The position numbers and the translations under genes are program-made. This document shows, piece by piece, positions 25,022 through 29,807 of a stretch of DNA of 64,000 nucleotides. Each line of letters begins with the position of its first letter. Position 1 is the first letter of the stretch. Source of the stretch: Agrobacterium tumefaciens (lineage in GTDB: Bacteria; Pseudomonadota; Alphaproteobacteria; Rhizobiales; Rhizobiaceae). A model generated the notes under the pieces. That model had not been told where the DNA came from and made no database searches. It saw only the letters and a list, made by a program, of their open reading frames with translations. Location: the NCBI RefSeq assembly GCF_005221385.1, contig NZ_CP039904.1, positions 1,268,501 through 1,332,500 on the forward strand, read 5' to 3'.

Positions 25022-25849
25022 ATGGCAGCCAGACAGAGCGACGGCGAACAGTACGGTCACAACGAAAACAAGGGTTTCTGGTCGATTGACTTCGGCAATT
25101 CGCCCGTCATCGGCACGGCCATTCATGACGGCCATTTCATTCGCCCGGAAATGGCCGGGCTGATGGCTCTTTCAGCCGAACAACGGCTGCGCGAGGAAGA
25201 TCCCTTCACCGGCGAGATGATCTCGGGCCTGACCAATCGTCTCGTCGTTCATCACTCTCGCTTCGAAATCGATCTCAATCGTGCGGCCGATCAGGCGATA
25301 TACCTGACGCCCGAGCAATCCTGGGGGCTTGAGGTCTGGAAAGAGGAACCGGCAGAGGAGGCGCTTCGGCAATCACTCGATTTCCACGCCGATTATTATG
25401 CAATGCTGGAGGCGGCTCTTTCTGCGGTGGAGCGGCGGCATGGCGCCTTTGTGGTGCTGGACGTGCATAGCTATAATCATCGCCGACAGGGCGCTGCTGC
25501 GCCTGCAACGGCGCAGGCGGAAGCGCCCGATATCAATATCGGTACATTTTCCATGGATCGCAGCCGCTGGAGCGATGTGGTCAGTGCTGTCGGTCATCAT
25601 TTCGCGTCAGCGACTATCGGTGGTCGACGCCTTGATGTTCGCGAGAATGTGGCGTTTCAGGGCAAAGGGGAGCAGACCCGCTTCATCCATGAACGATTTG
25701 CCGAAAACGGCTGCGCGATCGCAATCGAGTTCAAGAAATTCTTCATGGATGAATGGACGGGAAGGCCGGACACACGCGTGATATCGGATATCCGTGATAC
25801 AATCGCTGCCCTTCAACCTGTTCTTGAAAAATGCCTGGGGTCGCGGTGA
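25022..25849 (+). CDS. N-formylglutamate amidohydrolase (HutG-like) family protein
   Basis: The ATG at 25022 follows GGGGAGG and gives 275 residues. The family core is visible: HHSRFEIDLNRAADQAIY carries the DLNR motif, and VVLDVHSYNHR carries the metal-binding DxHS motif. ENVAFQGKGEQTRFIHERFAENG and AIAIEFKKFFMDEWTG follow. The N-terminal metal motif is altered (AIHDGHF). True HutG enzymes cleave N-formylglutamate in histidine breakdown, but no hut genes are here. It overlaps the QEGLA gene by one base (stop/start ATGA-type junction), so the two are translationally coupled and probably share a pathway. It probably cleaves an N-acyl or amide bond on another substrate. Confidence 0.82.
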   Translation: MAARQSDGEQYGHNENKGFWSIDFGNSPVIGTAIHDGHFIRPEMAGLMALSAEQRLREEDPFTGEMISGLTNRLVVHHSRFEIDLNRAADQAIYLTPEQSWGLEVWKEEPAEEALRQSLDFHADYYAMLEAALSAVERRHGAFVVLDVHSYNHRRQGAAAPATAQAEAPDINIGTFSMDRSRWSDVVSAVGHHFASATIGGRRLDVRENVAFQGKGEQTRFIHERFAENGCAIAIEFKKFFMDEWTGRPDTRVISDIRDTIAALQPVLEKCLGSR

Positions 25850-27726
25850 TGAGCGTTTCCTCCGCCCGCAGCGAGCCTTCCCCCATCGCCGACCTGGTGG
25901 ATGATGTCGTCTCCTGCCTGGAGGCCGGCAAGGCTATCCGCCGTGATGTCGGAAAAGACGGCAGGTTGCACATCGACCGGCCGCTGCCGTTCCTCTGCCT
26001 GCATCTGACGGGGGGTACGAAAGATCTAGCCGCGCGCGATATAGCCGCCGCCCATGCATCCTATCTCATCGCTTCGACCATTCAGGAGGCCGCACCGCTG
26101 ATCGAGGCCGTGGGCGCCGCCATGCTGCAGCGTTTCGGCGCCTTCATCGTCCTCGATATCGGTGAACTGGAACACGATATTCTGCTGGCCGACGATTCCC
26201 CCTTTCTGCCGCATTATGAGGTTTCCGTTTCAGCGACTTCAGAACCGGAAACGCAGAAAGCCCGCAGGGTCTTCATCAAGGCGGTCTGTGATGCCGAGGT
26301 GCGTTTTCGCACGCCGCGTATCACCCGGCCGGAACCGGAATCCGATCCGATCCTCAGGTTTCAGAATGCCGGTCTGGATTTTCCCTGCATCAGCGTGCGC
26401 TTCGCGCCGATCTATCGACAGCCGGAATCCGGTGCCGATTATCCCGGTCTGCGCGAAACGATGATTGCCGATCTTTTCGATGCGGGTCTGCAGGCTTTCT
26501 CGTCATTTTCCACCGGTATGGATGCGCTGAAGGTCACCAGCCACCGGGCGCTTGGCCGCAAGGCCTTTGTTGATGCCGTCCGGCGGGCCGACCGCTCGGT
26601 GGATGAGATCGTTTCATCCTTCGATTTTCTTCTATCCGTCACGCCGATCAATGCCCGCCGGGCGTTTGAGGAGTTTCGCGACGGCAGCTTTCAATTTGCG
26701 CCACGCCTGCTTTACCGGCCGCTCGGCGTTGATGTCGAGGAGCAGAAACGCAAGCTGTATTCCGTCGTCTTCGATCATCTGGAAGATCCGGTGCTCTATC
26801 ATCTCTACCGGGAGAAACAGCAGGAGATCGACCTGCAGCTGACGATGCTTGCGAACCTGCATCATCGCACCTTCACCGATTTTTCACGTGCCTTGTACGG
26901 TGCGGTCGAACCGGCGCTCCTGACGTTGGCGCTTCGTGTGCTTGAGGATTGCCCGCGCAGGCAGGAGAGCGGCGAAATCGCCATGGTGGATTGTTACGCG
27001 GTCGCCAGGAAATCGCGCGAGATGGTCGAGACCTATCTGGCGGAGGAACCGGAATTCAAGGCTCGCGTCGAAATCCGCGACGACCTGCCGCCCGGACTGA
27101 TGGTGACGGGCGAGAAGCTTTTGATCTCCCGCCACACCGTCATGGAACAGCGCCGTGTCGAGGCGCTGCTGTCGCATGAGATCGGCGTGCATCTTCTCAC
27201 CTATTTCAACGGCTCGTTTCAGGGGCTCAGGCTCTTCCGCACCGGCCTTTCCGGTTATGAAGGCGTGCAGGAGGGGCTGGCGGTGCTGGCGGAACATCTG
27301 GCCGGTGGCATGACGCGTGAGCGCCTGCGGCTGATTGCCGGCCGCGTCGTCGGCTGCGCCGCCATGCTTGATGGCGCGACATTCGTTGAGACCTTCCGCA
27401 TCATGACCCGTGAGCACGGTTTCGATGAGGCCGGCGCCTTCAACATGGTGCTGCGCATCTACCGTGGTGGCGGCCTGTCGAAGGATGCGATTTATCTGCG
27501 CGGGCTGGCCGAGGTGCTGGAGCATCTGCGCAAGGGCGGGGCGCTTGATCCGTTCTGGATGGGCAAGATCGCCGCTCAACATTTCCCGGTCATGCAGGAA
27601 CTGGCCCTGCGCGGCCTTTTGCGTCCGCCGGGTGTCAGACCTGTATTTCTGTTGCCCGCCAAGGCCAATGAGCGGCTGGAAAAAATACGGGCGGGATTAT
27701 CCATTGCCGAACTGGCAACATTATAG
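25849..27726 (+). CDS. DUF1704 family metallopeptidase ('flavohemoglobin expression-modulating QEGLA motif protein')
   Basis: The 625-residue protein is in the TIGR02421/DUF1704 family. HEIGVH at residues 443-448 is the HExxxH zinc motif, and the QEGLA motif supplies Glu475 as a third ligand. Animal DUF1704 proteins (MATCAP) are carboxypeptidases that remove the terminal Tyr from tubulin, so a carboxypeptidase activity is a fair family-based inference for the bacterial protein. The long N-terminal part (1-250) is family-specific. There is no signal peptide, so it is cytoplasmic. The gene is coupled to the amidohydrolase-like gene before it and lies 10 bases ahead of the ATP-grasp gene. The flavohemoglobin name is historical and not supported by context here. 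Confidence 0.85.
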   Translation: MSVSSARSEPSPIADLVDDVVSCLEAGKAIRRDVGKDGRLHIDRPLPFLCLHLTGGTKDLAARDIAAAHASYLIASTIQEAAPLIEAVGAAMLQRFGAFIVLDIGELEHDILLADDSPFLPHYEVSVSATSEPETQKARRVFIKAVCDAEVRFRTPRITRPEPESDPILRFQNAGLDFPCISVRFAPIYRQPESGADYPGLRETMIADLFDAGLQAFSSFSTGMDALKVTSHRALGRKAFVDAVRRADRSVDEIVSSFDFLLSVTPINARRAFEEFRDGSFQFAPRLLYRPLGVDVEEQKRKLYSVVFDHLEDPVLYHLYREKQQEIDLQLTMLANLHHRTFTDFSRALYGAVEPALLTLALRVLEDCPRRQESGEIAMVDCYAVARKSREMVETYLAEEPEFKARVEIRDDLPPGLMVTGEKLLISRHTVMEQRRVEALLSHEIGVHLLTYFNGSFQGLRLFRTGLSGYEGVQEGLAVLAEHLAGGMTRERLRLIAGRVVGCAAMLDGATFVETFRIMTREHGFDEAGAFNMVLRIYRGGGLSKDAIYLRGLAEVLEHLRKGGALDPFWMGKIAAQHFPVMQELALRGLLRPPGVRPVFLLPAKANERLEKIRAGLSIAELATL

Positions 27727-27736
27727 GAGGGGCTTC

Positions 27737-28783
27737 ATGCGTATCGCATTTTTCGTCAATTCCATTGAAACCGAAGGGCCGAACTACGCAACCGGCCTGC
27801 TGGCCATGGCCGCACTCAATCGTGGCCACGAGGTGGTCTATCTGACACCTGGGGATTTTACCCTGCGTTCAGATGACAGCCTGACCATTCACGCCACCGT
27901 GCTGCCGAAGACGAAATACAAGAAATCGGAAGGTTTTCACGCGGCACTTCAGGATAAGGCGCTGGAGCGGCGGACGATGGATGTGGAAGAAATCGATGCG
28001 CTGATGCTGCGCAACGACCCCTCGCTCGACCAGACGACGCGGCCATGGGCGGTGCATGCCGGCATCCTGTTCGGGCGGCTTGCCGAACAGCGCGGTGTTG
28101 TGGTGCTGAACGATCCCGAAGGTCTGGCGCTGGCGCAGAACAAGCTCTATTTCCAGAGCTTTCCCGAAATCGTCCGCCCGACCACGATCATTTCGCGCAA
28201 TGTCGAGGAAATCCGCGCCTTTGCCGATGCGCATCCCAAGGGCGTCATCGTCAAGCCGTTGCAGGGCTCCGGCGGCAAGAATGTCTTCAAGATCGGCTCC
28301 AGCAAGGAAACCAATCTCAACCAGATTTTCGAGGCAGTCAGCCTTGAGGGTTATCTGATCGCGCAGGCCTATCTGCCGGCTGCGAAGGACGGCGATATCC
28401 GCTTCTTCATGATGAATGGCCGGCCGTTGATGCGGGACGGCAAATATGCCGCACTCCGCCGTGTGCCGGCGAAAGGTGACCTGCGCTCCAACATTCACGC
28501 CCATGGCACGGCAGAAGCGGTGAAGGTAACGGACGACATCGTGGCGCTTGCCGAAATGATGCGGCCGAAGCTTGTGGAGGACGGCATGTTCCTCGTGGGG
28601 CTTGATATCGTTGGTGATAAGATACTGGAAGTGAATGTGTTTTCACCGGGTGGCTTATCGAATATCCTTGAACTCACCAATGTCGATTTCAGCGATACGA
28701 TCATCGACGCGGTAGAAACCAAAGTCTCCATGCAAGCCGCATCGGGTGGCGCCCTCTCCAACCGGTTGCTCGCGACGCTCTGA
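27737..28783 (+). CDS. ATP-grasp ligase (glutathione synthetase-like)
   Basis: From the ATG at 27737 (GGAGG seven bases before) the protein is 348 residues. The N-terminal pre-ATP-grasp domain begins MRIAFFVNSIETEGPNYAT. NDPEGLALAQNKLYFQSFPE, the VIVKPLQGSGGKNVF nucleotide loop, and VGLDIVGDKILEVNVFSPGG are the hallmarks of the GshB/RimK branch. It would form an amide bond between a carboxylate (activated as acylphosphate) and an amine. A genuine gshB is normally elsewhere in rhizobial genomes. The coupling with a DUF1704 peptidase and an amidohydrolase argues for a different product. Confidence 0.85.
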   Translation: MRIAFFVNSIETEGPNYATGLLAMAALNRGHEVVYLTPGDFTLRSDDSLTIHATVLPKTKYKKSEGFHAALQDKALERRTMDVEEIDALMLRNDPSLDQTTRPWAVHAGILFGRLAEQRGVVVLNDPEGLALAQNKLYFQSFPEIVRPTTIISRNVEEIRAFADAHPKGVIVKPLQGSGGKNVFKIGSSKETNLNQIFEAVSLEGYLIAQAYLPAAKDGDIRFFMMNGRPLMRDGKYAALRRVPAKGDLRSNIHAHGTAEAVKVTDDIVALAEMMRPKLVEDGMFLVGLDIVGDKILEVNVFSPGGLSNILELTNVDFSDTIIDAVETKVSMQAASGGALSNRLLATL

Positions 28784-28784
28784 A

Positions 28785-29807
28785 CTACTCCCGCAGCTCG
28801 GCTGATTGCATCTGCCGATACCAGGCGACGAGGGCCTTGATGCCCTCCTCGACCGGGGTCTGTGGCACGTAACCGGTCAATGCCCTCAAAAGATCGGGTG
28901 AGGCAAAGGTGCGGGGAACGTCGCCCTGCTGCATCGGCAGCATGTTGCGGATTGCTGGCTTGCCGACTGCCTTTTCGATCGTTTCGACGAAATGCATCAG
29001 CTCCACCGGCTGGCCGCCGCCAATATTGACGACGCGGAAGGGCGCGTGGTGCGAGAGCGTGTCGGTGACGCCTTCCTGCGTGACGCGGTTTTCCTCGGAA
29101 GGGATGACCGTGCTCAACCGGACGATGCCCTCCACCAGATCGTCGATATAGGTGAAGTCGCGGCTCATATTGCCTTGGCCGTAAATGTCGATCGGCCGGC
29201 CGTTGGAAACCGCGTCGACGAATTTGATCGGCGCCATGTCCGGCCGTCCCCACGGGCCGTAGACCGTGAAGAAGCGGAAGGCGGTGGTGGGCAGCTTGTG
29301 TAGATGGGCATAGCTGTGCGCCATCAGCTCCATCGATTTTTTGGTGGCCGCATAAAGCGTCATCGGCTCGTCGGCCTTGTCGCTCTCCGCGAAGGGGATT
29401 TTTTCGTTGGCGCCATAGATGGAGGAGGTAGACGCCAGCATCAGGTGTTTGACCTGCAGGCTCCTGGCAAGCTCCAGCATGTTGAAAGAGCCGATGAGAT
29501 TGGAATCGATATAGGCGCGCGGATTTTCAAGGCTGTAACGAACGCCGGCCTGTGCAGCGAGATGGATGATGATCTCCGGCTCTGCGGCCTCTGCCGCGCG
29601 CTTCAGCGCATCGGTATCTTCCAGCATGCCGATTTGCGCCCGGAAGCCGTTGGAGCGGGAAAGAATGGCGTGGCGTTTTTCTTTCAGGCTGACATCGTAA
29701 TATTGCGTCATGCCGTCGAAGCCGGTCACGAAATGGCCGGCATCCAGCAGCCGCTTTGCCACGTAAAATCCGATGAAGCCTGCCGTGCCGGTAACCAGAT
29801 AACGCAT
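28785..29807 (-). CDS. lpsL: UDP-glucuronate 4-epimerase
   Basis: This 340-residue extended SDR protein has the NAD motif [17 protein letters not shown], the active-site Thr/Ser near residues 127-129, and Tyr152/Lys156 in [25 protein letters not shown] is characteristic of UDP-glucuronate epimerases of the LpsL/CapI type. It converts UDP-glucuronate to UDP-galacturonate for lipopolysaccharide and exopolysaccharide. The UDP-glucose dehydrogenase gene lies just upstream on the same strand and supplies its substrate. Its stop is one base from the convergent ATP-grasp gene. The symbol follows the Sinorhizobium homologue. Confidence 0.88.

Follow-up and report, generated by a model that had tools for sequence, protein, structure and literature searches.

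What does the row of three genes do that lies on the forward strand of contig NZ_CP039904.1 of Agrobacterium tumefaciens (assembly GCF_005221385.1), inside the 64,000-nucleotide stretch from 1,268,501 to 1,332,500 that was analysed as a whole (the window)? The three genes, called the trio here, encode a member of the N-formylglutamate amidohydrolase superfamily (FGase), a DUF1704 protein related to the animal metallopeptidase MATCAP, and an ATP-grasp ligase resembling the glutathione synthetase GshB. The linkage of the genes and the integrity of their catalytic residues are firm, and their natural reading would be a system that makes and breaks an amide bond. Beyond this, we consider it about an even call that the trio is a cytosolic make-and-break amide system for hypo-osmotic or ionic adaptation, probably working through a small amide-linked metabolite. 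A sequence-only reading of the locus had proposed that the ligase attaches a residue to a protein tail, peptide or small thiol, that the DUF1704 protein removes it and that the FGase trims an N-acyl, N-formyl or amide intermediate. The linkage, the zinc motif and the separation of the ligase from the cell's own GshB have held up, and N-formyl trimming has not; the apparently dead FGase domain, the gene fusion, the fixed ligase tail and the ion or osmotic context had been missed.

Linkage and spread of the three genes

The row is as tight as had been claimed, with a one-base overlap between the first two genes and a 10-base gap before the third (coordinates are those of the window):

25022–25849, forward strand: FGase gene, 275 amino acids, ATG at 25022 and TGA at 25847–25849, PF05013
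25849–27726, forward strand: DUF1704 (MATCAP, QEGLA) gene, 625 amino acids, ATG at 25849 and TAG at 27724–27726, PF08014 and TIGR02421
27737–28783, forward strand: GshB-like ATP-grasp ligase gene, 348 amino acids, ATG at 27737 and TGA at 28781–28783, PF02955 and NF009110
25011–25017, forward strand: putative ribosome-binding-like purine-rich stretch GGGGAGG ahead of the FGase ATG, read in the sequence

An alternative start of the DUF1704 gene is the ATG at 25831.

The amide ligase is genetically tied to the MATCAP-type metallopeptidase far beyond close relatives, as the sequence-only reading had supposed. From named genomes came 80 loci, the best of 575 confirmed relatives, and because of this choice the set leans to near relatives. 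A ligase gene (within 2 kb) adjoins DUF1704 in 79 of these 80 loci, the contig of the remaining one (L162) being cut at its end; an FGase gene (within 2.5 kb) is found in 75, the exceptions being L146, L147, L150, L153 and L156, some on short contigs; both partners are present in 74. The DUF1704 and ligase genes share a strand in 88 of 90 pairs, and 80 of them are no more than 40 bases apart. The 80 loci consist of 53 from Alphaproteobacteria and 27 other records, 24 of the latter titled as metagenome-assembled genomes (not the two Pontibacter records and Pan216), and L038/L113 and L048/L157, with contigs of equal length within each pair, are each probably the same record. Outside the Alphaproteobacteria, the record titles include Phycisphaerae, Planctomycetes, Planctomycetota and Rhodopirellula, Verrucomicrobia, Kiritimatiellae, Gemmatimonadota, Poribacteria, Bacteroidales, Bacteroidetes and Pontibacter, Epsilonproteobacteria and Campylobacterales, Acidobacteriota, Calditrichaeota, Deltaproteobacteria, Magnetococcales and Actinomycetes. 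Since the linkage is kept across phyla, a chance neighbourhood was rejected.

Among 299 evenly drawn Pseudomonadota genomes, 39 contain DUF1704, and neighbourhoods were extracted at 42 loci, every listed place other than that of the window and a single fragment. Twelve of the 42 have the ligase next to DUF1704, and nine of these also have the FGase, separate or fused, by the thresholds applied. DUF1704 genes without an adjacent trio ligase lie at L041–L046, L049, L050, L054–L061, L064–L070, L072, L074, L075 and L077–L079 (trio loci within these ranges excepted). Many such ligase-less proteins are 380–480 amino acids long, and some have a gene for an RsgA-like GTPase or for an alpha/beta hydrolase nearby. 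A LysR regulator is found near the operon in L039, L040, L044, L048/L157, L051, L063, L073 and L076; a single orthologous regulator was not established, the between-group identities being mostly 28–50% in the pairs compared.

Two predicted hydrolases and a GshB-like ligase

The DUF1704 protein reaches 323.6 bits on PF08014 (cut-off 27) and 455 on TIGR02421 (cut-off 338.65), well inside both families. Compared with animal MATCAP (7z5g), a profile of 13 relatives gives a match at E 6e-15, and a KDxxYLxG stretch is common to both. Three of its features are:

27175–27192, forward strand: HEIGVH, putative zinc motif of the HExxxH type, residues 443–448
27268–27282, forward strand: QEGLA, with the presumed third zinc ligand
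25849–26598, forward strand: degenerate FGase-like N-terminal domain of DUF1704, about residues 1–250, detected with hhalign, motif lost

The first residue of QEGLA is 474 and its Glu is therefore 475; both motifs stand where the earlier reading had put them, and the retention of the ligands in homologues was confirmed. H443, E444, H448 and Glu475 are invariant in an alignment of 73 rows (72 of 94 proteins plus that of the window), which also conserves R536, R539, K545, D546 and Y549. A motif check covering all 96 long DUF1704 proteins of the extracted loci found HExxxH and QEGxA in every one, and HExxxH is present in 27 of 28 short DUF1704 proteins.

Judged by profile comparison, the front of about 250 residues is a dead FGase domain, which is a new observation. 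The N-domains of 91 DUF1704 proteins (fused forms left out) align with FGases in hhalign at a probability of 94.8 and E 5e-8, and in the three-gene type the FGase motif positions are altered. At five loci (L039, L063, L071, L073 and L076) FGase and DUF1704 are fused into one protein; four of the five keep the whole FGase motif, part of it being lost in L071, and such fused genes occur with the ligase adjoining. Because FGase and DUF1704 form one protein elsewhere, the dead domain would probably dock the live FGase.

The separate FGase has a score of 103 bits on PF05013 (cut-off 28.9), which places it in the superfamily, and its motif is intact (H35, G37, D60, D84, N86, R87, D147, H149, N172 and E236), these positions being conserved in 80–81 rows of an 81-row alignment that includes the HutG of the same genome. 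One could suppose that histidine or N-formylglutamate breakdown genes sit together here by chance, as the name of the superfamily would suggest. The genome has five FGase genes, however, and a different one is HutG at 393 bits; the trio FGase gives 27.7 bits on the HutG model TIGR02017, below the equivalog cut-off of 278.75, and its identification as HutG was rejected. The earlier view that hut genes do not explain this gene was thus right, and the same score leaves its N-formyl trimming step without support. With the cross-phylum linkage in addition, the breakdown-gene explanation is strongly disfavoured and close to being discarded.

The ligase scores 185.1 bits on PF02955 (cut-off 23) and 492.8 on NF009110 'glutathione synthetase' (cut-off 408); by score it is a member of the latter subfamily. 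On the canonical GshB model TIGR01380 it reaches 200.8 bits (201.1 in another scan), below the equivalog cut-off of 299.05. It matches E. coli GshB at E 6e-40 and has 30% identity to the canonical GshB of its own genome. A tree of 46 rows was built from 25 three-gene ligases, seven canonical GshB, four two-gene ligases and ten RimK-like rows, with a long-branch warning for the RimK-like rows and many open forks inside the three-gene clade. All 25 three-gene ligases fall on one side of a branch with support 97/95, recovered in 98% of 200 bootstrap trees. By this tree the trio ligase is a clade separate from canonical GshB.

Might it still be a second synthetase for glutathione, or for a gamma-glutamyl tripeptide, with the two hydrolases recycling that thiol? 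Its matches to NF009110 and to E. coli GshB are in line with this. In addition, four of 31 trio genomes (G006, G037, G101 and G314) have a strong PF04107 match (250–281 bits) and no GshB above the cut-off, and the trio ligase could therefore make glutathione there; seven more with PF04107 at 90–207 bits, of undecided kind, also have no GshB above the cut-off. The Agrobacterium genome has, at other places, a canonical GshB (G000:C1:3038330, 403 bits against a cut-off of 299) and a gene of the gshA type (263 bits on PF04107), and for this reason the trio ligase is not simply the glutathione synthase of the cell; that identity, against which the sequence-only reading had also argued, was rejected for this genome. 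Among the 31 trio genomes, GshB exceeds its cut-off in seven (Agrobacterium included), PF04262 is matched in four and PF04107 in 16 (six at 250–308 bits, seven at 90–207, three at 25–28), and 11, mostly metagenome bins, have no match to either gshA family. Taken with the deficit on TIGR01380 and the separate clade, this makes a second glutathione synthetase quite improbable. In L166, a Desulfocapsa plasmid (4297–10559), a different gshB-like gene forms a row with genes for a C45 peptidase, a radical SAM protein and a member of the gamma-glutamyl hydrolase family.

The ligase ends in an unusually constant way:

28718–28780, forward strand: C-terminal tail of the ligase, 21 residues past Glu327, ending in NRLLATL, of conserved length

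All ligases with a tail were recounted; without five pieces that were truncated or broken, they make 91 three-gene rows, 89 of them distinct. Exactly 21 residues follow Glu327 in 90 of them, the exception being L116 with 20, and the final residue is L in 88 and I in three. The alignment was made from 79 of 93 ligases, the window's ligase and the genome's own GshB, and became 75 rows when six of other types had been set aside; N342 is conserved in all 75, A346 and T347 in 64 each. The canonical GshB of the genome and the two-gene ligases end differently. The near-fixed length argues against a disordered tail, and a floppy substrate tail was rejected, as the length is constant in 90 of 91 while the ends of the FGase (11 tail lengths in 80 rows) and of DUF1704 (nine in 68) vary. 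Most likely, the tail would act as a fixed arm for docking onto a partner, an adjacent subunit or an active site. L138 and L159 have three ligase genes in tandem, L159 along with a second DUF1704; L142 has two, and L146 is a further case. The intact copies of L138, L142 and L159 retain the tail. The ligase gene of Planctomycetes bacterium Pan216 (L139:9890–10933) is broken by a stop codon. In the Agrobacterium clade (window 27709–27723; L085 to L088) DUF1704 itself terminates in ATL like the ligase and in the other clades listed it does not, which may be a chance coincidence.

The pairing of an ATP-grasp enzyme with a MATCAP relative also recalls a protein-tail cycle of the kind known from tubulin tyrosination, in which the ligase would add a C-terminal residue and DUF1704 would remove it (compare TTL/MATCAP and RimK/RimB). 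DUF1704 is homologous to animal MATCAP and has the same HExxxH type. The mammalian MATCAP/TMCP enzymes are C-terminal carboxypeptidases (PMC10499314), and the ATP-grasp enzyme RimK adds Glu to the C-terminus of a ribosomal protein (PMC12239564). Against such a cycle, the ligase clusters with glutathione synthetases and away from the RimK-like rows, and the FGase partner would fit a small N-acyl amino acid. Nor did open reading frames of 20–110 amino acids within 700 bases of either end of the trio yield a conserved small acceptor, none of their clusters covering more than three distant loci; the largest (L048/L052/L157) comes from two genomes only. The cycle is an account that we doubt, while keeping it in view.

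Ion channels, low salt and a possible role

The neighbours of distant trios, identified by clustering and Pfam, include MscS, CorA, MgtE, SLC12-like permeases, K+ channels and CNNM. Their frequency was assessed in 31 trio loci (474 kb), with L157 alone representing the L048/L157 pair and with L051 and L053 sharing one genome; matches were assigned to loci by coordinates, as similarity clusters alone gave MscS in 11 of 31 loci and missed L139. Thirty genomes, about 148 Mb together, contain 144 MscS matches, so that 0.50 would be expected in the loci, and MscS was found in 12 (L044, L051, L071, L138, L139, L144, L145, L151, L155, L159, L161 and L164). CorA, with 34 genome matches and 0.11 expected, was found in seven (L044, L051, L138, L143, L145, L148 and L158), an eighth in L159 being a fragment. 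These counts correspond to P of about 1e-14 for MscS and about 1e-11 for CorA if the loci were independent, which they are not fully. In L138, L071, L155, L140, L158 and, with one small gene between, L044, the next gene on the same strand is MscS, MgtE or CorA. MgtE lies inside L140 and L044; the genomes of L040 and L138 have it about 8–11 kb away from the trio. The channels belong to several unrelated families and therefore suggest no single target tail, which is a further point against the tail cycle.

Could the enrichment be a by-product of a few stress islands, saying nothing of function? Some of the genomes share ancestry, the Agrobacterium genome has no MscS near its trio, and the expression evidence given below comes from one study. 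On the other side, several unrelated channel families recur in several phyla, and some of the channel genes are in line with the trio. The MscS similarity cluster, which may overlook some members, contains none of the 29 loci that have DUF1704 and no adjacent trio ligase. The low-salt induction is independent of the neighbourhood counts (PMC10308900), and we think the by-product explanation unlikely.

In that study, Photobacterium damselae at 1% versus 3% NaCl raised A0J47_RS17020, named 'Glutathione synthase GshB', 38.4-fold and A0J47_RS17025, named 'QEGLA motif protein', 27.5-fold, the two being consecutive tags on chromosome II (PMC10308900). In Photobacterium DA100 and GJ3 a ligase gene overlaps a fused FGase–DUF1704 gene, ligase first, and such a ligase passes the 'glutathione synthase' model NF003573 (291.7 bits, cut-off 272), which would explain the name GshB. 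Judged by these tags and related records, A0J47_RS17020 is probably a trio-type ligase and not canonical GshB. Neighbouring tags with similar names are also given for Vibrio vulnificus, VV2_1203 (COG3930) and VV2_1204 'glutathione synthetase' (PMC3091676). Directly 3' of the trio, rlo-family genes (PF05618 peptidase, 7TM transglutaminase-like protein and ATP-grasp enzyme) were found in L052 by Pfam and in L048/L157 by similarity; the rlo genes of P. aeruginosa act in hypo-osmotic stress (PMC12239564).

The enzyme chemistry, the formation of a complex and the substrate class are what we infer from this material. The amine partner, probably an amino acid or a small peptide, would be coupled to a carboxylate that the ligase activates with ATP. 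Two metal-type hydrolases, the FGase and the DUF1704 protein of MATCAP type, would reverse or trim the product, and from family membership both may have a C-terminal or N-acyl amino acid as their target. The system would serve adaptation to low osmolarity or changing ions, most likely through a small amide-linked metabolite. Outside the Alphaproteobacteria there is support for a role at low osmolarity; for Agrobacterium we infer such a role. In its widest form, the proposal would be a hypo-osmotic pathway of bacteria at large, in which one complex holds a ligase that condenses amino acids to a new amide-linked metabolite when osmolarity is low and two hydrolases that return it, the ligase tail ([LM]ATL-COOH) being held in a carboxylate-binding site of a partner; this version is tentative and we would not wager on it.

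Several observations weigh against the osmotic and ionic reading. Eleven proteins flanking the trio in the window were scanned and match no channel family; they are proteins of sugar-nucleotide, proline, aldehyde and PQQ dehydrogenase type, two histidine kinases, and DJ-1-like, small or unknown proteins. The Agrobacterium genome, in which the trio lies on a contig of 2.15 Mb, has three MscS genes, the nearest about 0.29 Mb from the trio, and the MscS similarity cluster, which missed at least one MscS (L139), holds just six of 53 alphaproteobacterial loci. The P-values of the channel test treat related loci as independent, and the genomes of the gshA count are mostly metagenome bins of unstated completeness. 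The low-salt RNA sequencing is one study with 1,808 changed genes, and probably concerns a two-gene form (PMC10308900). Thirty of the 42 Pseudomonadota DUF1704 loci have no adjacent ligase, Vibrio sp. HDW18 (L175) has a fused FGase–DUF1704 gene and no ligase within 8 kb, and the small acceptor sought around the trio did not appear.

As to other neighbours, the ligase gene and a convergent epimerase gene end one base apart (window 28781–28787), and the fused gene of Vibrio sp. HDW18 adjoins maoP and a LysR regulator.

Comparison with known systems

Literature searches on the family names found no published description of an FGase–DUF1704–ligase trio; the 2009 amidoligase survey by Iyer and colleagues may have listed it. 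The trio is a widely spread, uncharacterised set, with a ligase labelled glutathione synthase in public records, that appears tied to osmotic and ion homeostasis. Through it, bacterial proteins related to the tubulin carboxypeptidase of animals gain a testable setting, and one published low-salt 'GshB' result may concern another enzyme.

Animal MATCAP/TMCP1 (KIAA0895L), a tubulin tyrosine carboxypeptidase, has, like the trio, a DUF1704 domain with HExxxH, Glu and KDxxYLxG, and since tubulin tyrosine ligase is an ATP-grasp enzyme, an ATP-grasp/carboxypeptidase pair exists in principle in both. The trio differs in its GshB-like ligase, its extra FGase and its dead FGase domain. The N-acetylglutaminylglutamine amide operon also combines an ATP-grasp enzyme with a peptidase and has an osmotic role; unlike the trio, it uses other families and serves at high salt. 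In Pseudomonas, the operons Rim (RimK-RimB) and Rlo (RloA-RloB-RloC) likewise keep an ATP-grasp enzyme and a peptidase together (PMC12239564). Their peptidases, however, are aspartic retropepsins, RloA is secreted, Rlo has a membrane transglutaminase-like protein and the ATP-grasp families differ from that of the trio (PMC12239564). The retropepsin-like peptidase family PF05618 had no match in the three operon proteins and six flanking proteins scanned.

Canonical GshB (TIGR01380, 1gsa) belongs to the same Pfam families as the trio ligase, which is set apart by its score below the cut-off, its separate clade and its near-fixed tail, mostly ending in ATL. HutG (TIGR02017) shares superfamily and motif with the trio FGase, which scores far below the HutG cut-off. 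New here are the putative dead FGase domain, the live fusion, the near-fixed ligase tail and the channel enrichment at distant loci.

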